Both the position numbers and the translations under genes were made by a program. Positions 42,490 to 54,306 of a DNA stretch of 64,000 nucleotides are shown here, one piece after another (within the stretch, counting starts at the first letter, position 1; each line of letters starts with the position of its first letter). The stretch is from assembly GCF_004343505.1 (NCBI RefSeq), contig NZ_SLXU01000002.1, positions 62,001-126,000 on the forward strand, read 5' to 3'. The notes beneath the pieces are model-generated. The model was not told where the DNA came from and did not search any database. It saw only the letters and a list, made by a program, of their open reading frames with translations. Origin of the DNA: Rhodovulum bhavnagarense. GTDB taxonomy: Bacteria; Pseudomonadota; Alphaproteobacteria; Rhodobacterales; Rhodobacteraceae.

Positions 42490-42984
42490 TTACGCGCCGG
42501 CCCATCCCGAAATCGCGAGATAGGCAACAAGCGTCGGCCCTAGCGCGAGGCCCATCGGGAAATCGCGCGCCTCCCACGAGGCCCAGTCGGGTGCGATACG
42601 GCGCATCGCGGGGATGCGGCGCAGGATGCGATGCGTCAGCAAAGCCGCGATCAGTATCAGCGACAACAGCATCAGCGCCATCATGACATCCGAAAGCGCG
42701 ACGAACGGTGCCATCGCCGCGGCGAACTTGGCATCGCCCGCGCCGATCACGCCCGCCATGTTCAGAACAAAGCCCATGATCAGGATCACCAACAGATGTG
42801 CCCAGCGCCAAGCCCAGATTTCCAGCGGCAGAACGGCAAGGCCCACCACGGCAAAGACGGCGACCAGCGCATAGACCGACTTATTTGGGATGCGCATGGT
42901 CTTGAGGTCGCTGAACGCCACCCATAGCCCGATGGGTAGGGCGAAGGGCAGGAACCACAGGGCGGTCGGATCGAGAAGCTGCAT
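42490..42984 (-). CDS. cpaA: Prepilin peptidase of the Tad system (CpaA/TadV)
   Basis: This 164-residue type IV prepilin peptidase (A24 family) has about five to six membrane helices. It carries the two catalytic aspartates: Asp26 in FSDLKTMRIPN and Asp84 in the GAGD motif GAGDAKF. It lacks the N-methyltransferase domain of PilD, as usual for CpaA/TadV. It should process the two Flp-type pilins at the start of the locus. It follows the TPR lipoprotein gene by four bases. Confidence 0.92.
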   Translation of the reverse strand: MQLLDPTALWFLPFALPIGLWVAFSDLKTMRIPNKSVYALVAVFAVVGLAVLPLEIWAWRWAHLLVILIMGFVLNMAGVIGAGDAKFAAAMAPFVALSDVMMALMLLSLILIAALLTHRILRRIPAMRRIAPDWASWEARDFPMGLALGPTLVAYLAISGWAGA

Positions 42985-42988
42985 CGGA

Positions 42989-43846
42989 TCAGTTTACCAC
43001 GTTGCTGTCGAGCGCCCGCAGCGCCCGCTCGGCGGCCTCGAAATGCTGGGGATTGGCGTCGATCGCCTCTTTCAGCAGGCCGCGGCCGATCTCGACATCG
43101 CCCTGCTTGATCGCGGTGAGGGCAAGTGTATGAAAAAGCTGTGCCTTTTCTGCCTGAGTCATCTCCACGATGGGTAGTTGATAGTTGCGTTGGGCGCCGC
43201 GGGCGAGGACGAGGTTGTTCTTGGCGGTGAACAGCGTGGCGTCATAGGTGATCGCCTCGACGAATAGCCTCTCAGCGCCGGTATAATCCCCGCGCGACAG
43301 TTTTGAATAGCCCCAGTTGTTCAGCACGCCCGAGGGCCTTGTCGTCAGTTCGACCGCGGTTTCGTAGAAACTGTCGGCTTTTTCCCATTCCTTGTTGCTG
43401 TCGGCGACCATCGCTTCCAGCCGGTAGCGTTTATAGGTTTCGAACGTGGGCGGGATTGCGTCCAGGATCTTTTCGGCCTTTTTCCAGTCGCCGTTGCGGA
43501 TCAGTGCGTCGGCATGGTCAACCCGGTCGTCATCGGTGGCATCGGGGTGATCGACGACCTTTGCCCAGGCCAGTGCGCCCTCGGTATTGCGCTTGGCGCG
43601 GATCAACGCGCGCGCAAGGCCCCGTTTGGGCGCGATATCGTCTGGCCGTTCCTTGGCCACGGCCGAGAAATGGCGGACCGCCTCATTGGGGTCTGCCACG
43701 TTCATCATGATTTCGTTGAGACTGCTTTCGTCGCTGGCCAGCACGTCCTGCACGGCGCGCTCTACCTCGGCCTCGCCATTTGTCGTACAGCCAGGTACTG
43801 CCAGCGCCGCAATGGCGCAGACCGATACAAGAAAGACATGGCGCAT
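42989..43846 (-). CDS. TPR-repeat lipoprotein of the Tad locus
   Basis: This 285-residue protein has a lipoprotein signal (CAIAALAVPGC, lipidated Cys20) and several TPR-like repeats, for example NEAVRHFSAVAKERPDDI, RPSGVLNNWGYSKLSRGDYTGAERLF and QGDVEIGRGLLKEAIDANPQHFEAA. TadD-type TPR lipoproteins assist secretin assembly or pilus biogenesis. It lies between a second TPR gene and cpaA, in the usual tadD region, so an outer-membrane pilotin-like role is likely. Which of the two TPR proteins is the true TadD equivalent is not clear. Confidence 0.83.
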   Translation of the reverse strand: MRHVFLVSVCAIAALAVPGCTTNGEAEVERAVQDVLASDESSLNEIMMNVADPNEAVRHFSAVAKERPDDIAPKRGLARALIRAKRNTEGALAWAKVVDHPDATDDDRVDHADALIRNGDWKKAEKILDAIPPTFETYKRYRLEAMVADSNKEWEKADSFYETAVELTTRPSGVLNNWGYSKLSRGDYTGAERLFVEAITYDATLFTAKNNLVLARGAQRNYQLPIVEMTQAEKAQLFHTLALTAIKQGDVEIGRGLLKEAIDANPQHFEAAERALRALDSNVVN

Positions 43847-43872: not shown

Positions 43873-44475
43873 TCAGGGGGTGGACAGCAGCAGGTATTTT
43901 CCACTGCCCCGCCTCACCAACACAAAATCGTTGTTTTGCGGCGGATCATAGGCCGAATTCTCGGTTTTTGCGATAGCGCGGCGCAGATTTTCGCGGATTT
44001 CGTCCGATTCGCCACTGTCCAGCGCATAGGCGGTGCGGAATACCCGGCGTGCCTCTCCGGTTTGTCCGCTCTCCATCAGGACCACGCCGAGATTGTTCCA
44101 GGCGGGCACGAATGTCTCGTCGACGTCGATCGCCCGGCGCAACTGTGCCTCGGCCTGTCCCAGCCGTCCCAGATGCAGGTTTGCCGATCCGATGGCGGAC
44201 AGGACATCGGCCGTCAGCCCTTGTTCGGCCGCCGCGCGATAATAGGCCTTGAGCGCCAGTTCGAATTCTCCCGCCGCCATCAAACGATGACCGACGATCA
44301 AGCCATCCACGGCCTCGGTCACCTCGGGCGTGCCGGGCGGAGGCGGGGGACCGTGGCGGCCGTTTCCCGGCCCACCCAGGCCGTTCTGGCAGGCCGCCAG
44401 AAAAGACAGCGCAGCCGCTAACAGTGCCATTGAGAGGCTAGAACGCCCCCTTTTGGAGAGTTTCGTAAATGCCAT
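43873..44475 (-). CDS. tadD: TadD-like TPR lipoprotein
   Basis: This 200-residue lipoprotein (lipobox FLAAC, Cys29, after a basic n-region TKLSKRGR) has a Pro-rich linker and two to three TPR units (AGEFELALKAYYRAAAEQG, LSAIGSANLHLGRLGQAEAQL, VPAWNNLGVVLMESGQTGEA). The order tadC then a TPR lipoprotein matches TadD. The ATG at 44475 overlaps tadC by 38 bases and supplies the positive signal-peptide start. An ATG at 44430 just after tadC would leave a signal of only 13 residues with no positive charge. Confidence 0.82.
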   Translation of the reverse strand: MAFTKLSKRGRSSLSMALLAAALSFLAACQNGLGGPGNGRHGPPPPPGTPEVTEAVDGLIVGHRLMAAGEFELALKAYYRAAAEQGLTADVLSAIGSANLHLGRLGQAEAQLRRAIDVDETFVPAWNNLGVVLMESGQTGEARRVFRTAYALDSGESDEIRENLRRAIAKTENSAYDPPQNNDFVLVRRGSGKYLLLSTP

Positions 44476-45427
44476 ACACCGAGGGGCCAATCAGGATGAT
44501 CATCAGCGGCGGAACCGTGAACATCATCGTGCCCAGTGTCAGCTTGGTAGGCAAGACATTCGCCTTTTCTTCGGCCCGCATCACGCGTTTGTCGCGCATT
44601 TCGCCCGCATAAACGCGTAGTGCCTCCGAGATGGAGGTGCCAAAGCTGGCCGACTGGATCAGCACGGTCACGAAAGAGGCGACATCGGGCACGCCGCAGC
44701 GTTCGCCCATATCCTTGAGAACCTGGATCTTGTCCTTGCCTGCCTTCAACTCGTGGGCGACCATTTCGTACTCGTCAGCCAGGTCGGGAAAGCCCGCACG
44801 GATCTCGGCGGCGACGCGGATGATGGCCTGGTCCAGCGACTGGCCCGCCTCGACGCAGACCAGCATCATGTCCAGGCTATCGGGAAAGCCGTTGGTGATT
44901 TCTCCTTGCCGGGTTTGCAATCGGCGCTGTACCCAGTATTTCGGCAGGTAATAGCCAATCGCCCCGGGAACGATGATCGACAGGATCATCTGCGTGGAGG
45001 ACATCCCGCCGGTGGAGTTGCCGACGATGGCATAGAGCACCCCCGCCACCAAAAGCGCGATCCCCAACGCGAACTGCGCGAAATGATACATGCGCACCGA
45101 TGATCGCGAGCGGTAGCCGGCGCGCATCAGCTTGAGCCGAATGGCACTGAATTCCTCTTCGTTCTGGGGTTCGAGGAATGTGGAATACTTGTCCAGCTTG
45201 TCGGCCCGCGAGTTGTAGCGCAGCCGGGGCAGGCCTGTCTCGGCGCTGGCGCGCTGGCGTGCGAGGTTTTCTTCGCGCAGCCGGTCCAGCGGATCGGCGC
45301 GTTTTTTCAAAAGCGAGGGCAGCGCCAGCGCCAGCAATGTCACCGCGAGAAATCCCACCGCATAGATCGGGCCGAGCGGGCCGAGCCTTTCGACCAGAAT
45401 TGCCTGGATCGTATCGAGCATTGCCAT
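44438..45427 (-). CDS. tadC: Tad pilus inner-membrane platform protein TadC
   Basis: This 329-residue T2SSF-domain protein has hydrophobic helices near residues 20-40, 115-160 and 290-325, and a cytoplasmic core containing FPDSLDMMLVCVEAGQSLDQAI and the mirrored VPDVASFVTVLIQSASFGTSISEALR. With TadB it forms the platform on which the CpaF ATPase acts. The start at 45427 is ten bases after tadB. The end overlaps the following lipoprotein gene. Confidence 0.94.
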   Translation of the reverse strand: MAMLDTIQAILVERLGPLGPIYAVGFLAVTLLALALPSLLKKRADPLDRLREENLARQRASAETGLPRLRYNSRADKLDKYSTFLEPQNEEEFSAIRLKLMRAGYRSRSSVRMYHFAQFALGIALLVAGVLYAIVGNSTGGMSSTQMILSIIVPGAIGYYLPKYWVQRRLQTRQGEITNGFPDSLDMMLVCVEAGQSLDQAIIRVAAEIRAGFPDLADEYEMVAHELKAGKDKIQVLKDMGERCGVPDVASFVTVLIQSASFGTSISEALRVYAGEMRDKRVMRAEEKANVLPTKLTLGTMMFTVPPLMIILIGPSVYGIYETLQKGAF

Positions 45428-45437
45428 AGTGGCCTCC

Positions 45438-46406
45438 CTAGACCTTGATGTTGACCATCATGCGCATGAAAATCACGTTGGTGACGAGGAACACGCCGAC
45501 GGCGAGGGCGGCCGGGATGAAAAAGGCGGTTTGCTTGACGCTGTCGTAATAGTCGGGCTTGAGAACCGAAATCATCAGGATTGCCGCGATCGGGAAGCCC
45601 GACAGGAACATCCCCGACCATTTCGCCTCTGCGGTGATCGCCTTGACCCGGCGGAACAGTTTGAACCGCGCGCGGATGACAGCGGCGAGCCCCGCGAGGA
45701 TTTCGGCAAGGTTCCCGCCGGATTGCTGCTGGATCGTCACTGCCACGGCGAGAAAGCGTAGATCCTGCATGTCCATGCGTTCGGCAAGATCTTTCAGCGC
45801 CTCTGACACATCGCGCCCGTAGGCGGCCTCGTCCGCGATGATGCCGAACTCCGAGCCAAGCGGATCGGCTACCTCGCGCGCCACGATGTTGATCGCCGAG
45901 ATGAAAGGATGCCCCACCTTGAGCGATCGGACCATGAGTTCTACCGCGTCGGGAAGCTGTTCCTCGATCAGGGCGAGGCGTTTCTTGGCCTTGTTGTTGA
46001 TCCACACATAGACCCCGCCAACCCCCATCACCACCGCCACCAGCGCACGCACGGGCAGGGCCGCCTCGGTGCCCATGGTAAGCCCCATGAAAGCCACCCC
46101 CGACAGCAGCACCATGATCATGATCAGTTGTTTCGGCGAAAAGGCGATATTGGCTTTTTGCGCCTTGTCCGACAGCATCGAGTAAAGCGGGATGCCGCGC
46201 GCGTTCACGTGCTGGCTCATCTCCTTGCGGAGCTGTTCCAGAACCTCTTCGCGATTGCCGCCTTTTTCCAGCATTTCCAGCCGGCGGTTGAGCTTGCTGT
46301 TAAGGCTGATCGATCTGCCAAAGACGGTCAGGTACAGACCCTCGACCAGAACAAGGACAGAAACGAAAATCAGCCCGTAGATAAGGGGTTCGGCACTGAT
46401 TTGCAT
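45438..46406 (-). CDS. tadB: Tad pilus inner-membrane platform protein TadB
   Basis: This 322-residue T2SSF-domain protein has an N-terminal membrane helix (LIYGLIFVSVLVLVEGLYL), a charged cytoplasmic stretch (LNRRLEMLEKGGNREEVLEQL) and C-terminal helices. The core motif LPDAVELMVRSLKVGHPFISAI is the TadB counterpart of the TadC motif, and QQQSGGNLAEILAGLA is conserved in T2SS/T4P platform proteins. It lies three bases after the CpaF gene, so translation is coupled. Confidence 0.94.
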   Translation of the reverse strand: MQISAEPLIYGLIFVSVLVLVEGLYLTVFGRSISLNSKLNRRLEMLEKGGNREEVLEQLRKEMSQHVNARGIPLYSMLSDKAQKANIAFSPKQLIMIMVLLSGVAFMGLTMGTEAALPVRALVAVVMGVGGVYVWINNKAKKRLALIEEQLPDAVELMVRSLKVGHPFISAINIVAREVADPLGSEFGIIADEAAYGRDVSEALKDLAERMDMQDLRFLAVAVTIQQQSGGNLAEILAGLAAVIRARFKLFRRVKAITAEAKWSGMFLSGFPIAAILMISVLKPDYYDSVKQTAFFIPAALAVGVFLVTNVIFMRMMVNIKV

Positions 46407-46409
46407 GGC

Positions 46410-47840
46410 TTATGCCCCCATATTCGGTTCAAAAAGGCTGGCTGGCAGATCATAGCCCCACTGGCGGAAGCGTTCCGAATAGTGGCTGCGCACGCCGGTG
46501 GCGGTGAATCGGCCGATGATCTTGCCGTCGGGTTGCAGCCCGAGGCGTTCGTAGCGGAACACCTCCTGCATCGAGATCACGTCGCCCTCCATGCCGGTCA
46601 GTTCGGTGATCGAGACCATCCGGCGCGACCCGTCCTGCAGGCGGCTGGCCTGCACGATCAGGTTCACAGCGCTTGCGATCTGGCTGCGAACCGCTTTGAG
46701 TGGCATCTCGATCCCTGCCATCGCGATCATGTTCTCAAGGCGCGAAACGGCGTCACGGGCGTTGTTGGCGTGGATCGTGGTCATCGAGCCGTCATGGCCG
46801 GTGTTCATCGCCTGCAACATGTCGATGACCTCTTCGCCGCGGGTTTCGCCGACGATGATGCGGTCGGGGCGCATCCGCAGGGCGTTCCTCAGACAGTCGC
46901 GCTGGGTCACCGCGCCGCGGCCCTCGACATTGGCGGGGCGGCTTTCCATCCGGCCCACATGGGTCTGCTGCAGCTGCAGTTCGGCAGTATCTTCGATCGT
47001 CAGGATGCGTTCGGAATTGTCGATGAAGCTGGACAGCGCGTTCAATGTGGTCGTCTTGCCCGACCCCGTCCCGCCCGACACGATCACGTTGAGGCGGCAG
47101 GCCACGGCGGCCTGTAGATAGGCTGCCATTTCCTCGGTGAAGGCGCCGAAGCGGACAAGATCGTCAACGCCCAGCTTGTCCTTCTTGAATTTCCGGATCG
47201 AAACCAGGCTGCCATCCACCGCGATCGGCGGCACCATCGCGTTGAATCGCGACCCGTCAGCCAGGCGCGCGTCGACATAGGGGTTCGATTCATCGACGCG
47301 CCGGCCCACGGCGGAAACGATCTTGTCGATGATCCGCAAAAGGTGGCGTTCGTCCTTGAAGGTGATGTCGGTCAGTGTCAGCTTGCCCGCGCGTTCGACG
47401 AAGATCTGCTTGGGCCCATTGACCAGGATGTCGTTGATGGTTTCGTCCTGCAAGAGCGGCTCTAGCGGGCCGAGCCCCTTGACCTCGTCATAGAGTTCCT
47501 GGTGCAGTTGTCGACGGTCCTCCTTGTTGAGGACCACGCTCATTTCCTCTAGTGCCTCGGCGGCGATGTCCTGGATCTCGGCGCGCAGATCGGCCTCGGC
47601 GGCGTGTTCCAATGCGGCGAGGTTGAGGTTTTCCAACAGGCGCTTGTGCAATTCGACCTTGAGCTCGCCCAGCTTTTCGCGTCTCTTGCGTTCCTTGTCC
47701 TCGGGCATCGCGCGGGCCGGGGCGGTGCGTGGCTTGGCCGGGGCGCTGTTGGTTGTCGCGGGGCGGACCTGTTGGGGCGGCGTGGCGACATGCGCGAGAC
47801 GGGCGGCGGAATGGTCGGCCTTCTTGTAGCGCGAGAACAT
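46410..47840 (-). CDS. tadA: Tad pilus assembly ATPase CpaF/TadA
   Basis: This 476-residue secretion ATPase powers Flp pilus assembly. A basic N-terminal extension and a coiled region precede the ATPase core. Walker A GGTGSGKT lies at 256-263. The Asp-box-like RILTIEDTAELQL, the arginine-rich LRMRPDRIIVGETRGEEVIDML (Walker B) and HDGSMTTIHANNARDAVSRLE with the His box are all present. The relatives VirB11 and PilT share this layout. It is preceded by cpaE and followed by tadB. Confidence 0.97.
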   Translation of the reverse strand: MFSRYKKADHSAARLAHVATPPQQVRPATTNSAPAKPRTAPARAMPEDKERKRREKLGELKVELHKRLLENLNLAALEHAAEADLRAEIQDIAAEALEEMSVVLNKEDRRQLHQELYDEVKGLGPLEPLLQDETINDILVNGPKQIFVERAGKLTLTDITFKDERHLLRIIDKIVSAVGRRVDESNPYVDARLADGSRFNAMVPPIAVDGSLVSIRKFKKDKLGVDDLVRFGAFTEEMAAYLQAAVACRLNVIVSGGTGSGKTTTLNALSSFIDNSERILTIEDTAELQLQQTHVGRMESRPANVEGRGAVTQRDCLRNALRMRPDRIIVGETRGEEVIDMLQAMNTGHDGSMTTIHANNARDAVSRLENMIAMAGIEMPLKAVRSQIASAVNLIVQASRLQDGSRRMVSITELTGMEGDVISMQEVFRYERLGLQPDGKIIGRFTATGVRSHYSERFRQWGYDLPASLFEPNMGA

Positions 47841-47862: not shown

Positions 47863-49110
47863 TCAGGCGGTGCCAGAGGCTTCGGCTGCCTCGTTCAGAT
47901 CGTAAAGCGATTTGGCAAGCTTCTGGATTTCCTTGCGCAGCGGTGTCTTGGCCGCGGTTTCGGCCAGCGGCAGCCCGTGGTCGCCGGCCTGGGCGATAAC
48001 CTTGCCGCCATCGGGCAACAGCATGTCCAGGTCTATATCCAGGCTTTCGGCCAGCCGCTTGACGCGGCTCTTGCCCGCAAGGTCGGTGAACTTGGGCGCG
48101 CGGTTCAGGATGAAGCGTAACTTTTGATGGGGCAGGTCTTCGGATTTCAGCGCACGTAACAGCCGCAGCGTGTTTTGCGCCGAGCGCATGTCGAGTTCGA
48201 GCAATGCGAAATAGACATGCGCCTTGTTCAGGACCGTTTCGGTCCATTGCACCAGGGTCGTGGGCATGTCGATGACCACGAAATCGAACTGGGACCGAGC
48301 CATTTCCACCAGCGCCTCCACATCTTCGGAGGTGACGATATCCAGCGGCAGGATGTCGGACGGCGCGGTCAGGACGTGCAAGTCCTTGTTATAGGCCTGC
48401 AATGCCTGCATGAAGCTCTCGCAATCCATCGCGGCTATGTCGGTCAGAAGCTCGACAACCGCCTCCTTGCGCGGCAGGTCCAGGAAGGTCGAGACCGAGC
48501 CGAATTGCAGATCGAGATCCAGCAGGCAGATCCGCTTGTCCGTCTTTGCGGCCAGCCTGGTCAGTTCCCAGGCCATGTTCACCGCAAAATTCGAGGCCCC
48601 GACGCCGCCAGCAAGACCATGCACCGGTAAAACCACCCCATCGCGATGGTTCGATGTCACCTTGGGGGCGGCCGGGGCGCGCGCGGATACGGGTTCGGGA
48701 GCAGGGGTGCCAAGCCTGGCGATGGCCTCGTGCAACGCCCCATCGGGCAGCGGGTAGGGAACGAAATCGTCGGCCCCGTGCCGCATGAGCTGGTGCAGCG
48801 CGATCGGGCTCAGTTCTTCAGCGATGACGACGACCTTGATACCGTGGCTCTTGGCACTCCGTATGACCTGGCCGATAAAGGCGATATTGTCCTCATCCTC
48901 TTGATCGACCGCGACTGCCACGAAATTCAGCAAGGAACCGTCGGGCTGGCCGAAATAGGTCGTGGCATCCTCGAACGCGAGATCGCCCCAGCCCTCACCG
49001 AGCTCGGATTCCATATCCTCGATCAGAAGGTCGAAATTCTGGATGTCCCGCGACACAGTGCATGCGGTGATCTGGGCGGGCTCTGATTCCAACGCGGCCA
49101 TACTCGTCAT
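47863..49110 (-). CDS. cpaE: Tad pilus localisation protein CpaE/TadZ, atypical ParA-like
   Basis: This 415-residue protein has a receiver-like N-terminal domain and a MinD/ParA-like C-terminal domain. The P-loop region reads GLAGGVGAS (165-173): compared with the deviant Walker A motif KGGxGKS/T, both lysines are replaced by alanine, while the switch-like LLDLDLQFGSV and FVVIDMP remain. TadZ proteins are known to be atypical, but full loss of both lysines suggests binding rather than hydrolysis of nucleotide. The ATG at 49110 follows GAAGAGAGAGCG. It usually sets pilus position at a pole. Confidence 0.9.
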   Translation of the reverse strand: MTSMAALESEPAQITACTVSRDIQNFDLLIEDMESELGEGWGDLAFEDATTYFGQPDGSLLNFVAVAVDQEDEDNIAFIGQVIRSAKSHGIKVVVIAEELSPIALHQLMRHGADDFVPYPLPDGALHEAIARLGTPAPEPVSARAPAAPKVTSNHRDGVVLPVHGLAGGVGASNFAVNMAWELTRLAAKTDKRICLLDLDLQFGSVSTFLDLPRKEAVVELLTDIAAMDCESFMQALQAYNKDLHVLTAPSDILPLDIVTSEDVEALVEMARSQFDFVVIDMPTTLVQWTETVLNKAHVYFALLELDMRSAQNTLRLLRALKSEDLPHQKLRFILNRAPKFTDLAGKSRVKRLAESLDIDLDMLLPDGGKVIAQAGDHGLPLAETAAKTPLRKEIQKLAKSLYDLNEAAEASGTA

Positions 49111-49298
49111 CGCTCTCTCTTCCCCAATTGTTGGGTCGGCCGGGGAATGGGCGATGCCTGCCCGACGGACCCTCACGCGACTCGTGGGCGCGCGATTTAT
49201 TCCTTGGGAAACAGACTGGAGTTCAAACTGGGCAACATTACGGCTCAAAAACCGTAATTGTTGGATTATCGCGGGCGCCCGGACGTGGGCGATCGCGG

Positions 49299-49946
49299 TC
49301 AGTCGCTGGTTTGCGCAGCGTCGGCGTGGATGCCGGGTTCGGTCGCGCTTTGCAGGAATTCCTCGTAAACGCGCTGCGCATATTTGCCATCATGGACCAG
49401 GGGCACGGGCCTGAGGAACCCCGATACCTCGGTCACGGTGCGCCGGTTACGCCGTTCGCGCCCCTCGGTGACAATCAGAGGCTGGGTTTCGCCAAAGGAA
49501 ACCATGGCCTCAAGCCGGTTGCGCGAAATCCCCTGCGAAACCATGAAATCGACCGCCGCCCGCGCACGGCGCATGCCCAGTGCGCGGTTATAGGCGGTAC
49601 TGCCCACCATGTCCGTATGGCCGTAGACGCGGAACTTGACCAGCGGGTAGGCACGGATCCATTCCGCCTGGCGGCTCAGAACGGCGCGGGCCTGGCCGTC
49701 CAGAACGGCGCTGTCGAAGGCAAAGTTGATCGTGCTGGGCACTTCGGCGGCAAAGCGGCGCGACAGGTTGAGGACCGCGCTGCGGTCGCCATTCATCACC
49801 TGGGTGTTGTTCATCGTGGCATTGCCGAAATCGCCCTGACCGAGAAATTCGCCGGCTGGCCGGTTGAAGTCGACCATCGCGCCGGGCGAACAGGCCGACA
49901 GCGCGGTAATCGCGCCGAGAGACATCACGAGGACAGGCGCGCGCAT
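49299..49946 (-). CDS. OmpA-family lipoprotein of the Tad locus
   Basis: This 215-residue lipoprotein (lipobox ALSAC, Cys19) has an OmpA-like peptidoglycan-binding domain: INFAFDSAVLDGQARAVLSRQAEW, FRVYGHTDMVGSTAYNRALGMRRARA and FGETQPLIVTEGRERRNRRT. It sits between the secretin and cpaE genes, where other Tad loci have cpaD/rcpB-type outer-membrane proteins, and may anchor the secretin to peptidoglycan. The start overlaps nothing; the secretin stop lies three bases upstream, so the two are coupled. Confidence 0.88.
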   Translation of the reverse strand: MRAPVLVMSLGAITALSACSPGAMVDFNRPAGEFLGQGDFGNATMNNTQVMNGDRSAVLNLSRRFAAEVPSTINFAFDSAVLDGQARAVLSRQAEWIRAYPLVKFRVYGHTDMVGSTAYNRALGMRRARAAVDFMVSQGISRNRLEAMVSFGETQPLIVTEGRERRNRRTVTEVSGFLRPVPLVHDGKYAQRVYEEFLQSATEPGIHADAAQTSD

Positions 49947-49949
49947 CGT

Positions 49950-51320
49950 TTACTCCATCACATAGCCGTAAGAGCCGGTGAAATCCTGGCGCGCAACCTC
50001 GCCGGCGGCACCATTTTGCGGCAGGGATTTGCCGTCGACCTTGCCGAACAGGAACAACTCTCGTTCGCTGGGCGGCCGAATCCGGTCGGTCGGAAGTGCC
50101 AGCGCCTCGCCCCGCGTGGGGCTGACGAGATGGGCGGTCACGATGATTACCAGTTCGCTTTGTTCGCGCTGATATTCGGCACTGCGAAACAGGGCGCCCA
50201 GGATCGGGATGTCGCCCAGCCACGGCACCTGGCCGTTGAGACTGGTAAAATCATCCTTGAGCAGGCCCGCCACCGCGAAACTTTCCCCGTCGCGCAACTC
50301 TACCGTGGTCGAAGTGGACCGGGTCGAGAACCCGCTGATCGAGAACCCGCCATTGGTATAGGAAACGGTCGGATCGATGCCGCTGACCTCGGCGCCCATC
50401 TTGAGGTTGATGGTCTTGCCGATCACCCGCGGGGTGAAGTTCAGCGAGATCCCGAACGGTTTGAACTCGACGGTAATATTGCCCTCGTCGTTGGCGATCG
50501 GCACCGGATACTCGCCCCCCGCCAGGAATTTCGCCTCCTGGCCCGACAATGCAGTCAGGTTGGGTTCAGCCAGCGTGCGCACGAATCCCTTGGTTTCCAA
50601 TGCTTCTAGCAGAACGTCGAACTGCATCGCGCCGAGGCCGCCATTGATCGACAAAAGCCCCGTGCCGGTGCCGGAGGTCGTCATGGAATCCGCGATCACC
50701 GTTGTGTCGCCGCCGTCGATTGTCGCTCCGGCGCGGAAATTGGTGCCGAGGCTCTTTGAAACCGAGCGGTTCATTTCGGCAAAGCGGACCTTCAGCATCA
50801 CCTGTTCGCTGCCACCCACAGATAACAGGTTGGATACCTTGCCCGGCGCATAGCGCGACGCAAGGTCGATGGCGCGGTCCACGACATGGGACGAGGTGAC
50901 GGTGCCTGACAGCACCAGACCGTCATTGGCAGAGCGCACCTCGATCGGCTCGCCTGGCAGAACCTCGCCAAGGCGTTCCTTGAGTTCGCTCAGATCGGGC
51001 GTTACCCGCACCTCGACATTGGTCAGCAATCGGCCATCGGGCGCCAACAGTGTCAGCGTCGTGCGGCCCGGCGACTTGCCCAGCACATAGATCGTGCGAT
51101 CAGACAGCGTCGAGATATCCGCGATCTGCGGGTTTGAAATCGACAATTCGGCGAAAACCTCATCGCTTTCCACCACGACGGCACGGTTCATCGGAACGGT
51201 CAGCTTTCCCGACGTGCCCCCGCCCAGCGCGCGCAAGGTCTGCGATTGGGCCATGCCCGCGATCCCTGCGACCGCGGCGGCCCCGATCAGCACGGCTGTA
51301 ACTAGCCCTTTGATTTTCAT
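49950..51320 (-). CDS. rcpA: Tad pilus secretin RcpA/CpaC
   Basis: This 456-residue outer-membrane secretin has a signal peptide (KIKGLVTAVLIGAAAVAGIAG), a pilus-secretin N-domain (LTVPMNRAVVVESDEVFAELSI, IYVLGKSPGRTTLTLL), a BON-like domain (VVDRAIDLASRYAPGKV) and the C-terminal secretin core with VRTLAEPNLTALSGQEAKFLAGGEYPVP-type sequence and VPWLGDIPILGALFRS. It forms the exit pore for the Flp pilus. It lies 177 bases after cpaB. Confidence 0.95.
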   Translation of the reverse strand: MKIKGLVTAVLIGAAAVAGIAGMAQSQTLRALGGGTSGKLTVPMNRAVVVESDEVFAELSISNPQIADISTLSDRTIYVLGKSPGRTTLTLLAPDGRLLTNVEVRVTPDLSELKERLGEVLPGEPIEVRSANDGLVLSGTVTSSHVVDRAIDLASRYAPGKVSNLLSVGGSEQVMLKVRFAEMNRSVSKSLGTNFRAGATIDGGDTTVIADSMTTSGTGTGLLSINGGLGAMQFDVLLEALETKGFVRTLAEPNLTALSGQEAKFLAGGEYPVPIANDEGNITVEFKPFGISLNFTPRVIGKTINLKMGAEVSGIDPTVSYTNGGFSISGFSTRSTSTTVELRDGESFAVAGLLKDDFTSLNGQVPWLGDIPILGALFRSAEYQREQSELVIIVTAHLVSPTRGEALALPTDRIRPPSERELFLFGKVDGKSLPQNGAAGEVARQDFTGSYGYVME

Positions 51321-51497: not shown

Positions 51498-52340
51498 TCA
51501 ATTCGTGCAGGGGATCGGGATTTCCACCACCTCGGCGCCCCGGCGGGTGCGGATGGTGCAGACTTCCTTTTGTGTTTCGACCAGTTCGGGCACCTCGTCA
51601 TCGACGATCCCCAAAAGTCGTTTCTGGTCGATTTCCACCACTTCGGAAATTGCTTCTTCGTCCGAGGCGACCAGCGACAGCGACAAGCGCCCGGTGGATT
51701 GTGCCTGCGCGAGGGCAGCGACCTGCTGCGGCGTGGCCTCGACCGTGACGGTGCGCGCGATCAGGGGCCGGGTGGTATCGTTGTCGGCGATCTGGTCCAC
51801 GGCGATCAGTGCCACACCGCTTTGGATCAGGCGGGTGACCTGTTTGCGATCGACATCGCCGGTCCAGTAGACATCGACCGTGTCGCCCGGCCTCAGGAAT
51901 CCCGAAACGCCCGAGGCCACGTCGACCCGGATCGCAAAGGCGCGCATGCCCTTGCCCAGCCGCGCGGTCAGTCCCGCATCTGCACCCGGCTCTGTCAGTT
52001 TCACGGCAAGCAGCGGCTCGCCCGCCTCGACCGCGCGCAGCACGCTGCGATAGGCGGGGGCGCCCTCTGGGAACATTGTCTTTTCGTCCTGGAAGGTGCC
52101 CTCGGGCAGCCATTTCTTGGGCCAGGGCGCAAGCGCCATCTTGTCGGCGGTCAGTTGTTCACCATAGCGCAGGGGGGTCTTGGCCACCAGAACCGGGACC
52201 AGCTCGATCTGGGGCGCGGTATTTGCGCGTTCCTGTGCCAGCGCCTGTTCATATTGCTGGATATAGCCCTGCGCCATGTAAACCGCGAACCCCGCCAGCC
52301 CCAGCCCGGCCACCAATACAAGCCCAAAGATCATCCGCAT
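51498..52340 (-). CDS. cpaB: Tad pilus assembly protein CpaB/RcpC
   Basis: This 280-residue protein has one N-terminal membrane helix (IFGLVLVAGLGLAGFAVYMA) and an SAF domain (VLVAKTPLRYGEQLTADKMALAPW), followed by the RcpC/CpaB beta-rich region with FAIRVDVASGVSGFLRPGDTVDVYW. It ends CTIRTRRGAEVVEIPIPCTN with two cysteines that could form a disulfide. It acts in the periplasm with the secretin. It follows the second pilin gene after about 175 bases. Confidence 0.94.
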   Translation of the reverse strand: MRMIFGLVLVAGLGLAGFAVYMAQGYIQQYEQALAQERANTAPQIELVPVLVAKTPLRYGEQLTADKMALAPWPKKWLPEGTFQDEKTMFPEGAPAYRSVLRAVEAGEPLLAVKLTEPGADAGLTARLGKGMRAFAIRVDVASGVSGFLRPGDTVDVYWTGDVDRKQVTRLIQSGVALIAVDQIADNDTTRPLIARTVTVEATPQQVAALAQAQSTGRLSLSLVASDEEAISEVVEIDQKRLLGIVDDEVPELVETQKEVCTIRTRRGAEVVEIPIPCTN

Positions 52341-52515: not shown

Positions 52516-52704
52516 CTAGTTCGTGCCGGCCCCGATCCCGGCCATCTTTGATGAAATGTCATCGCCCAACCCGTCGGTCGAGGTGCCGAAGGTCGACATC
52601 ACCAGCACACCCAGCCCGATGACCCCTGCGCTCAAAACCACCCAGTCCAGCGAGGTATTGCCATCTTCCTGGCGGATGAAGGTCGCGATGCGATCTGTTT
52701 TCAT
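52516..52704 (-). CDS. Flp-type pilin-like protein, second copy
   Basis: This 62-residue prepilin-like protein has a short basic leader (MKTDRIATFIRQEDG), a cleavage-type glycine at residue 15 and a hydrophobic helix (WVVLSAGVIGLGVLVM). The residue at mature position +5 is Asp20, followed by Trp21, instead of the Glu-Tyr of classical Flp pilins. The C-terminus is rich in Gly, Ser and Thr. The ATG at 52704 follows GGAGAAAGAC. It lies after the terminator of the first pilin gene and before cpaB, so it could be a minor pilin at lower level. Confidence 0.82.
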   Translation of the reverse strand: MKTDRIATFIRQEDGNTSLDWVVLSAGVIGLGVLVMSTFGTSTDGLGDDISSKMAGIGAGTN

Positions 52705-52880
52705 GTCTTTCTCCAAAGCACGAGCACTCGTTACGTCTGTTCATGGCGCGGCAGTGATGCGCAGGTGGCCATTTTCACAGGATGGTGGGCAATTGCGGCG
52801 CGCGCGGGGTGCCGATGTGCCCCCAACCGGGTGTTTTCGGGATCGGTTGCGGGCCGGGCCGGCTGGATGCGCCGAGAACG

Positions 52881-52910
52881 GAAAAGGCCGCGCCCTGGAA
52901 GGACGCGGCC
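52881..52910 (-). terminator. Intrinsic terminator after the first pilin gene
   Basis: On the minus strand GGCCGCG and CGCGGCC form a stem extended by TCC/GGG pairing, followed by TTTT (52885 to 52882). It begins 23 bases after the pilin stop. It would cut most transcripts here, giving more pilin than downstream assembly proteins. Confidence 0.8.
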
Positions 52911-52933
52911 AAATATCATCGGTGAGGGCGAGG

Positions 52934-53134
52934 TTAGTTCGCCGTCCAATCCGTGACGGTGGCAGTGTTGAGGTTGGTTTGGATCTTGCCGGCCAGGGTT
53001 TCCACGCCACCACCCACGGTGGTCAGCACGGCCAGGCCAAGGCCGACGATAGCGGCGGTCAGCACGACCCAGTCCACGGTCACGGCGCCGGATTCGTCGT
53101 CGCGGAAGTTTTTGATCAGGTTGAAAAGTTTCAT
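52934..53134 (-). CDS. flp: Flp-type major pilin
   Basis: This 66-residue prepilin has a leader ending in DDESG (cleavage after Gly16) and a mature helix AVTVDWVVLTAAIVGLGLAV. As in the second copy, mature position +5 is Asp (Asp21) and +6 is Trp, not the Glu-Tyr pair of most Flp pilins. The short C-terminus is rich in Thr and Asn. A strong GGAGGGACGAACA site precedes the ATG at 53134. It is first in the Tad locus with its own terminator, the expected arrangement for the major subunit. Confidence 0.88.
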   Translation of the reverse strand: MKLFNLIKNFRDDESGAVTVDWVVLTAAIVGLGLAVLTTVGGGVETLAGKIQTNLNTATVTDWTAN

Positions 53135-53490: not shown

Positions 53491-54306
53491 ATGATGCGAC
53501 GCTTGGCGGCGGCGATAGGTTTCGGGGCGGCCCTCGCGCTGACGCCCTGCGCCGGGGCCGAGCCGTCAGCGACATCGGATTTCACCTTTCGGCGGGTCAA
53601 GCCGCCCGCACCCGGCGCGGGCCGCCTGATCACGGTTCAGATCGCCCCGGCCGCGCCGCAACTGCCCCCTGCCGCCGACGAACCGGGGACACGGCCTGTC
53701 CAGCCGGACGAATCCGCCGCCTGGTTCTGGGGGGCGGTTTCGCCAGCGCTTGCCGATAGCGGCCCGGGCCGGCTGTCGCAGGCTGTCGCCGCCTTGGCGA
53801 CAGCACCCGTCAACGAGGCGGTCAGCGCGCCGCGCCTGCACCTGCTGGAGCGCATCGCGCAGACCCATGGCGTCGATATACTCATGGCCACGGCGGGTAC
53901 TCGGGTATCGCCCGCGCTGGCACTGGCGGTCATCGGGGTCGAAAGTGCGGGCCGCGCCGATGCCGTAAGCAACGCGGGCGCACAGGGGTTGATGCAACTC
54001 ATGCCCGCCACCGCCGACCGCTTCGGGGTCGATCAGGCACTGGAGGCCGGAGCGAACATCCGCGGCGGGGTGGCGTTCCTGGATCACCTGATCGCGCGTT
54101 ACGCGGGCGATCCCATCCTTGTGCTGGCGGCCTATAATGCCGGTGAGGGCGCCGTGCGCGACCATGCGGGCGTGCCGCCCTTTGCAGAAACGCGTAGCTA
54201 TGTACCGCGCGTCCTGGCCGCCTGGACGGTGGCGCGCAACCTGTGCCAGGTCCCGCCCGTCCTGATCAGCGATGGCTGCATCTTCCAGCGGATGGAGAAA
54301 GGATAG
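53491..54306 (+). CDS. Lytic transglycosylase (SLT domain)
   Basis: This 271-residue exported protein has a signal peptide (RRLAAAIGFGAALALTPCAGA), a Pro-rich ~100-residue spacer and a C-terminal SLT domain. The catalytic glutamate is Glu151 in VIGVESAGRADAVSNAGAQGLMQLMPATA, and AAYNAGEGAV carries the second motif. It cleaves peptidoglycan glycosidic bonds, which could open the wall for the adjacent Tad pilus. Its stop directly abuts the next ATG, so it is co-transcribed with the HAD-UbiA gene. That links wall remodelling with the arabinose-donor genes. Confidence 0.92.
   Translation: MMRRLAAAIGFGAALALTPCAGAEPSATSDFTFRRVKPPAPGAGRLITVQIAPAAPQLPPAADEPGTRPVQPDESAAWFWGAVSPALADSGPGRLSQAVAALATAPVNEAVSAPRLHLLERIAQTHGVDILMATAGTRVSPALALAVIGVESAGRADAVSNAGAQGLMQLMPATADRFGVDQALEAGANIRGGVAFLDHLIARYAGDPILVLAAYNAGEGAVRDHAGVPPFAETRSYVPRVLAAWTVARNLCQVPPVLISDGCIFQRMEKG

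Follow-up and report, generated by a model that had tools for sequence, protein, structure and literature searches.

The 64,000-nucleotide stretch of the Rhodovulum bhavnagarense genome analysed here (the window) encodes two short prepilins, PilA1 and PilA2, in which the Glu-Tyr pair of classical Flp pilins at mature positions +5 and +6 is replaced by Asp-Trp. Their genes head a tad/cpa operon, whose machinery genes lie downstream on the same (-) strand. We consider it probable (roughly 0.6) that both proteins belong, as subunits, to a Tad (type IVc) pilus with a re-wired core contact, a reading supported by the tad operon with its own prepilin peptidase, by +5 and +6 states that travel together, by the retention of the pair in divergent sequences, and by the placement of the associated machines in one TadA group. 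Asp-Trp (DW) pilins are probably a lineage-wide variant of the Tad pilin with a re-wired, tighter core.

PilA1, a DW prepilin of the consensus type, is encoded at positions 52934..53134 (-), and PilA2, a divergent DW prepilin adjoining cpaB, at positions 52516..52704 (-); both genes are preceded by GGAG-type ribosome sites at a distance of 6-9 bases. Each short frame runs from a charged leader through a single Gly into a hydrophobic helix, and divides into leader and mature part as MKLFNLIKNFRDDESG / AVTVDWVVLTAAIVGLGLAVLTTVGGG... for PilA1 (cleavage after Gly16, mature AVTVDW) and as MKTDRIATFIRQEDG / NTSLDWVVLSAGVIGLGVLVMSTFGTS... for PilA2 (cleavage after Gly15, mature NTSLDW). The presence of Asp+5-Trp+6 behind the Gly cut in both prepilins, the starting claim of an earlier sequence-only reading, was thereby confirmed. 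That reading had named cleavage at another site, restoring Glu at +5, as one of two findings that would speak against it; the chance of this is negligible, since each leader contains one Gly situated right before the hydrophobic stretch (the cleavage Gly is kept in 21/21 aligned sequences) and no alternative cut after a leader Gly or Ala places Glu at +5. Compared with their own family consensus, PilA1 matches at 23 and PilA2 at 11 of 25 mature residues. Both are predicted to be processed by a TadV-type peptidase and assembled into pili, with PilA1 as the probable main subunit and PilA2 possibly serving as a minor or accessory one. An AlphaFold model of a lone subunit has helices at 3-14 and 20-57 with a pTM of 0.40, and is uninformative on the fibre.

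The operon continues, all on the (-) strand, with CpaB/RcpC (51498..52340; TIGR03177 at 218 bits, RcpC at 87.6 bits), the secretin CpaC/RcpA (49950..51320; Secretin and pilus N-terminal domains), an OmpA-domain protein (49299..49946; PF00691), a CpaE/TadZ-like ATPase whose true start is uncertain (47863..49248; AAA_31, with TIGR03815 under cut-off), the motor ATPase CpaF/TadA (46410..47840; T2SSE, with TIGR03819 at 348 bits under its cut-off of 373), the platform proteins TadB (45438..46406; TadB_TadC_N and T2SSF) and TadC (44438..45427; T2SSF), a TadD-like TPR protein (43873..44490), a second TPR protein (42989..43846), and the prepilin peptidase TadV/CpaA (42490..42984), the sole Peptidase_A24 match found in the genome assembly. 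Between pilA1 and pilA2 lies a terminator-like hairpin of 11 pairs with a T tail (52886..52910 (-)), recognised as a consensus match only; three sites of the terminator type were found in the region, against a mean of 1.3 in shuffled sequences. Such a hairpin would raise the output of pilA1 over that of the remaining operon. A search for CtrA-type sites gave a single one-mismatch match in the window, far from the pilA genes, with 1.57 expected. Divergent from pilA1, across a gap of approximately 350 bases, a gene for a lytic transglycosylase with an SLT domain is found (window 53491-54306 (+)), possibly a wall-opening partner.

By their sequence features, PilA1 and PilA2 resemble the major pilins of Flp/Tad systems (Flp_Fap, PF04964; for example Caulobacter PilA), which are likewise short prepilins with a Gly cut and one long hydrophobic helix (some 20 hydrophobic residues behind the cut), encoded beside cpaB-secretin-cpaE-cpaF-tadBC and a prepilin peptidase. 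They differ in lacking the Glu-Tyr of the GXXXXEY motif, both reading Asp-Trp, and the residues that follow are mostly Val-Val-Leu-Thr in DW pilins as opposed to Gly/Ala-Leu-Ile in Flp/Tad major pilins. The trait of the DW family, an AVTVDWVVLTA-type mature start with tad linkage, is present. TadE/TadF minor pilins share the type IV leader, the acid at +5 and, by expectation, the peptidase, but are longer and carry Glu-Phe or Glu-Leu at +5/+6 by the cuts placed on contigs C7 and C1 of the same genome; PilA1 and PilA2 are neither long nor Glu-Phe, and gave no match to the TadE domain. Flp_Fap matched neither protein at E 1, and both stayed under the cut-off of every Pfam and NCBIfam model tried, PilA1 being far under those of DUF4244 and Flp1_like (14.3 of 27 and 13.4 of 33.5 bits). 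Among the 21 aligned sequences, one matched Flp_Fap (E 0.042), and weak helix matches to DUF4244 and Flp1_like were found in 13 and 8, with best E values of 0.0008 and 0.006. PilA1 and PilA2 are filed as a variant family that would work like Flp pilins, outside Flp_Fap as defined. The best match of the family profile among solved structures (E 0.076) proved to be an unrelated lectin; the genome's own classical Flp reached the pilin structures 8u1k and 8u2b only at E 0.68 and 1.3. Plasmids gave no match, and neither did PHROGs at E 0.1.

The pairs at mature +5/+6 were counted with a profile built from 35 pilins of both kinds with these two positions masked, which was searched against 312 loci; as the loci were drawn with DW-type or Flp_Fap queries, the ratio of DW to EY is no measure of prevalence. 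Within the order Rhodobacterales, 285 distinct hits comprised 241 DW, 29 EY, 5 DF, 4 EW and 1 DY, the remaining five being register failures or TadG-like proteins. The 48 distinct hits outside the order comprised 46 EY, 1 EW and 1 register failure, with no DW. Eight further sequences had no cut site by the rule used, four of which also read DW. The claim that the pair is common to both copies and no chance mutation was thus borne out, the masked profile still giving DW in 241 of the 285 order hits. As counted here, without phylogenetic correction, the +5 and +6 states nearly always travel together, Trp standing at +6 in 241 of 247 sequences with Asp at +5. The coupling is not absolute: single-side variants (EW, DF, DY) occur, and at least some of these belong to additional gene copies (L029, L036, L076). 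One of the 29 EY sequences is a paralogue of the DW family reading AVTVEYVVLTS (L174), the other 28 being of the classical kind.

Of the 196 genomes in the order sample, 183 (own genome counted) contain a PilA1 relative at E 1e-5 or better; this number is a reading of the match table, where nine genomes have no match and G006, G022, G055 and G163 also miss the threshold. At E 1 or better the count is 187/196. All 196 genomes share one family code, so that the order is here effectively that family. A scan for T[VI]DWVVLT-type stretches gave at least 578 confirmed matches of 592, from which 80 loci were kept, in Actibacterium, Tropicimonas, Celeribacter, Octadecabacter and other Rhodobacterales, with a few labelled only Alphaproteobacteria or Proteobacteria. 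A wider pattern, found in 184/196 order genomes, was not used as a count, since it allows other residues and many genomes also match its backward control. Flp_Fap exceeded its cut-off in 15 of the 196 genomes, and 28 matched at E 0.001. The Asp-Trp pair is therefore real and shared, as the sequence-only reading had it, but is not peculiar to these two genes: it is the common state of one tad-linked pilin family in the lineage. A wide occurrence of Asp-Trp in classical Flp families, which the same reading had listed as speaking against it, was not seen in that literal sense: 27 of 29 loci found with Flp_Fap gave a pilin by the filter used (two gave none), those read being Glu-Tyr, and the count of DW outside the order was zero. 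Ten genomes of genus code g7 lack a strong PilA1 match in the match table, and in two of the ten (G048 and G188) its place is taken by a Glu-Tyr Flp that passes the Flp_Fap cut-off, a natural case of replacement or loss. Another genome (G017) holds 16 family matches over many contigs; most genomes have fewer, and a few others 11-15.

The candidates for DW pilins read beyond the order were rejected. In the class sample of 385 genomes, a DWVVL[TS]-type DNA pattern had matches in 41, of which four belong to the own family; of the 30 loci read, 29 are no pilin and one (L262) belongs to the order. Most of the 29 are copies of one repeated long protein with DWVVLSACNTA, which we take to be a CHAT-type protease, a few matches lie in what is presumably a GlmS-like protein, and the rest are short or unrelated frames. 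Matches to an EYVVLTA pattern in one genome (G057) likewise fell inside a large unrelated protein.

CpaB stands beside the DW pilins in 72 of the 80 named loci, and of the 46 loci that measure 18 kb or more, 41 have TadA; a match to the window's TadV in only 6 of these 46 counts against a re-wired core. At least two pilin copies are present in 59 of the 72 named loci with CpaB and an upstream pilin, and in 44 of the 72 the copy closest to CpaB departs most from the consensus, with a tie in 14; PilA2 of the window agrees with this layout. In the bin of the 36 family sequences with the lowest resemblance to the consensus, one of them a register failure, DW is kept in 31, an acid at +5 in 35 and an aromatic residue at +6 in 36. 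The profile favours the whole block from +1 to +11, which is otherwise nearly as conserved as D5/W6, and the bin was chosen by low identity at the other 23 positions, so that the low conservation of +12 to +25 within it arises partly by construction.

A quick TadA tree was built with 33 of 72 sequences (all EY, EW and DF loci, the window, and every third of the others) and rooted at the midpoint. The 21 machines that accompany DW pilins fall into a single TadA group with an SH-aLRT of 98. Adjoining it are two machines of genomes beyond the order, whose pilins are Glu-Trp in one case and Glu-Tyr in the other; long branches were flagged, most of all the own C7 TadA, and by this warning the joining of these two long branches may be false. 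The Glu-Trp case is an alphaproteobacterial E5-W6 pilin (L051/L189), which resembles the DW pilins in its Trp at +6, differs in Glu at +5 and is otherwise weakly alike (best E to an order genome 1.1e-4); its TadA is the closest of 12 comparison machines, the own C7 included (60.7% over 412 residues). It possibly represents an intermediate state, and a step order Glu-Tyr to Glu-Trp to Asp-Trp is possible. As DW has about one origin, the joint occurrence of the +5 and +6 states amounts for the most part to a single event that is counted repeatedly. The single TadA group and the conservation of neighbouring positions would also suit a founder effect, in which an ancestral pilin drifted to DW and the pair was kept by constraint on the N-terminal block with its mechanics unchanged. 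We regard this as unlikely: both sides of a known contact differ, Asp and Glu are unequal in reach, and the pilins of Flp_Fap type read within this order carry Glu-Tyr.

A second Tad locus lies on contig C7 of the same genome. It encodes a Glu-Tyr Flp over the Flp_Fap cut-off, a TadA, relatives of TadB, TadC, CpaB and the secretin, and TadE-domain proteins; C7 showed no relative of CpaE at E 1e-5. With its Flp accompanied by its own TadA, CpaB, secretin and TadE-type proteins, this locus might be thought to supply the true main pilin, leaving the DW proteins an accessory role. Such an arrangement is very improbable, as the C7 machine is distant from that of the window (TadA 43% identical) and a C7-type Flp as main pilin is no general rule, Flp_Fap passing its cut-off in 15 genomes of the order sample against 183 with a PilA1 relative. 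Contig C1 carries a TadG-like protein with TadE and a TadF-like protein (Glu-Phe and Glu-Leu by the placed cuts, the second under the TadE cut-off), which may serve the window's machine. As the sole match to a prepilin peptidase is the TadV of the window's operon, this enzyme presumably cuts all prepilins of the genome, including the Glu-Tyr and Glu-Phe ones. One peptidase serving Glu-Tyr, Glu-Phe and DW prepilins points to assembly, not cleavage, as the step affected.

GXXXXEY is given as the Flp pilin motif (PMC10934763) and the Glu-Tyr pair is called invariable (PMC9531140). The work on the Caulobacter fibre, whose helical parameters are a rise of 14.7 Å and a twist of -52 degrees, describes Glu19 (+5) as bonding Tyr20 (+6) of one subunit and the Ala17 backbone of another, reports that both residues are needed for assembly and not for expression or processing, and proposes that the pair implies a universal Tad assembly mechanism (PMC11067988). 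The sequence-only reading had assigned to +5 the neutralisation of the neighbouring subunit's N-terminus; this is the type IVa account, and in the Caulobacter Tad fibre Glu+5 instead hydrogen-bonds Tyr+6 and a backbone atom (PMC11067988), which makes the joint change at +5 and +6 the interesting part. By ideal geometry, not from a model, the maximal alpha-carbon reach is 14.1 Å for a direct E..Y bond and 11.3 Å for D..W via the indole nitrogen. With a span about 3 Å shorter, Asp-Trp cannot simply replace Glu-Tyr.

In the mechanism proposed for the re-wired core, TadV would cut the prepilins after the Gly, CpaF with TadB/TadC would stack the helices, and Asp+5 and Trp+6 would take the two sides of the contact made by Glu+5 and Tyr+6 in Caulobacter. 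Asp+5 would most likely accept a bond from the indole N-H of Trp, from a neighbouring backbone or N-terminal amine, or from both. Because Asp plus Trp is shorter, neighbouring N-termini would come closer, or the bonding partner would change; a tighter core with different packing is favoured over other partners for Asp. The exact D..W bond is a guess held with low confidence, and counted against it is that it would not fit the place of an E..Y bond at full stretch. Asp+5 could also neutralise the neighbour's N-terminal amine as Glu+5 does in type IVa pili, with Trp+6 only packing and no D-W bond. A salt bridge is described for type IV filaments in PMC10191384, the acid at +5 persists in nearly all of the most divergent sequences (35/36), and Phe, which offers no side-chain bond donor, is tolerated at +6 in the five DF sequences; set against these are the Caulobacter bonding pattern and the near fixation of Trp+6 behind Asp. 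We judge this arrangement rather doubtful, and the re-wired core remains our preferred reading.

Longer putative frames with DW-type starts (or D5 with an altered +6) were observed in four related genomes (L336, L337, L341, L342, L343, L344 and L345, in G017, G009, G016 and G007), either at a distance from the listed pilin arrays or on different contigs of the draft assemblies. Their tails measure very roughly 90-250 residues, one containing a DPDP-rich linker (L341; L345 is another example), and in L338 and L344 the D5-Y6 and D5-W6 starts are followed by similar tails of approximately 100 residues with a QRN-VDDA stretch. None of the four long frames tested gave a Pfam match over cut-off, and long-tailed DW frames were not seen in the window's own genome. 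They are candidates for tip pilins or decorated pilins and bring to mind the customised Tad tips described in PMC12075869. At a further locus (L340, in G011) two neighbouring frames have family-like starts with degenerate +5/+6 (NM and DQ); their tails are of low complexity, rich in Ala/Lys or Ser/Gly, and close with repeated HKKD-type units.

The literature searched, in which coverage of subscription papers was thin, yielded no report of Tad pilins with Asp-Trp, and the main text of a study of Rhodobacterales tad genes (PMC8383342) contains none of the terms 'pilin', 'tryptophan' and 'aspart'. The Glu-Tyr pair is part of the definition of Flp pilins, and here a whole lineage departs from it at both positions; as its pilins are missed by the Pfam and NCBIfam models tried, the tad operons of this lineage may look pilin-less to annotators. 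Tentatively, and at somewhat less than even odds, the Tad filament of the Rhodobacterales would be structurally distinct, its Glu+5-Tyr+6 network having been replaced once, possibly via Glu-Trp, by a core of Asp+5 and Trp+6 in which the N-termini lie closer and the helical geometry differs, and genomes such as that of R. bhavnagarense would run both types of fibre with one peptidase. Two substitutions that occur naturally on either side of one subunit contact offer a probe of what holds pili built from single short helices together, and predict a measurable geometry.
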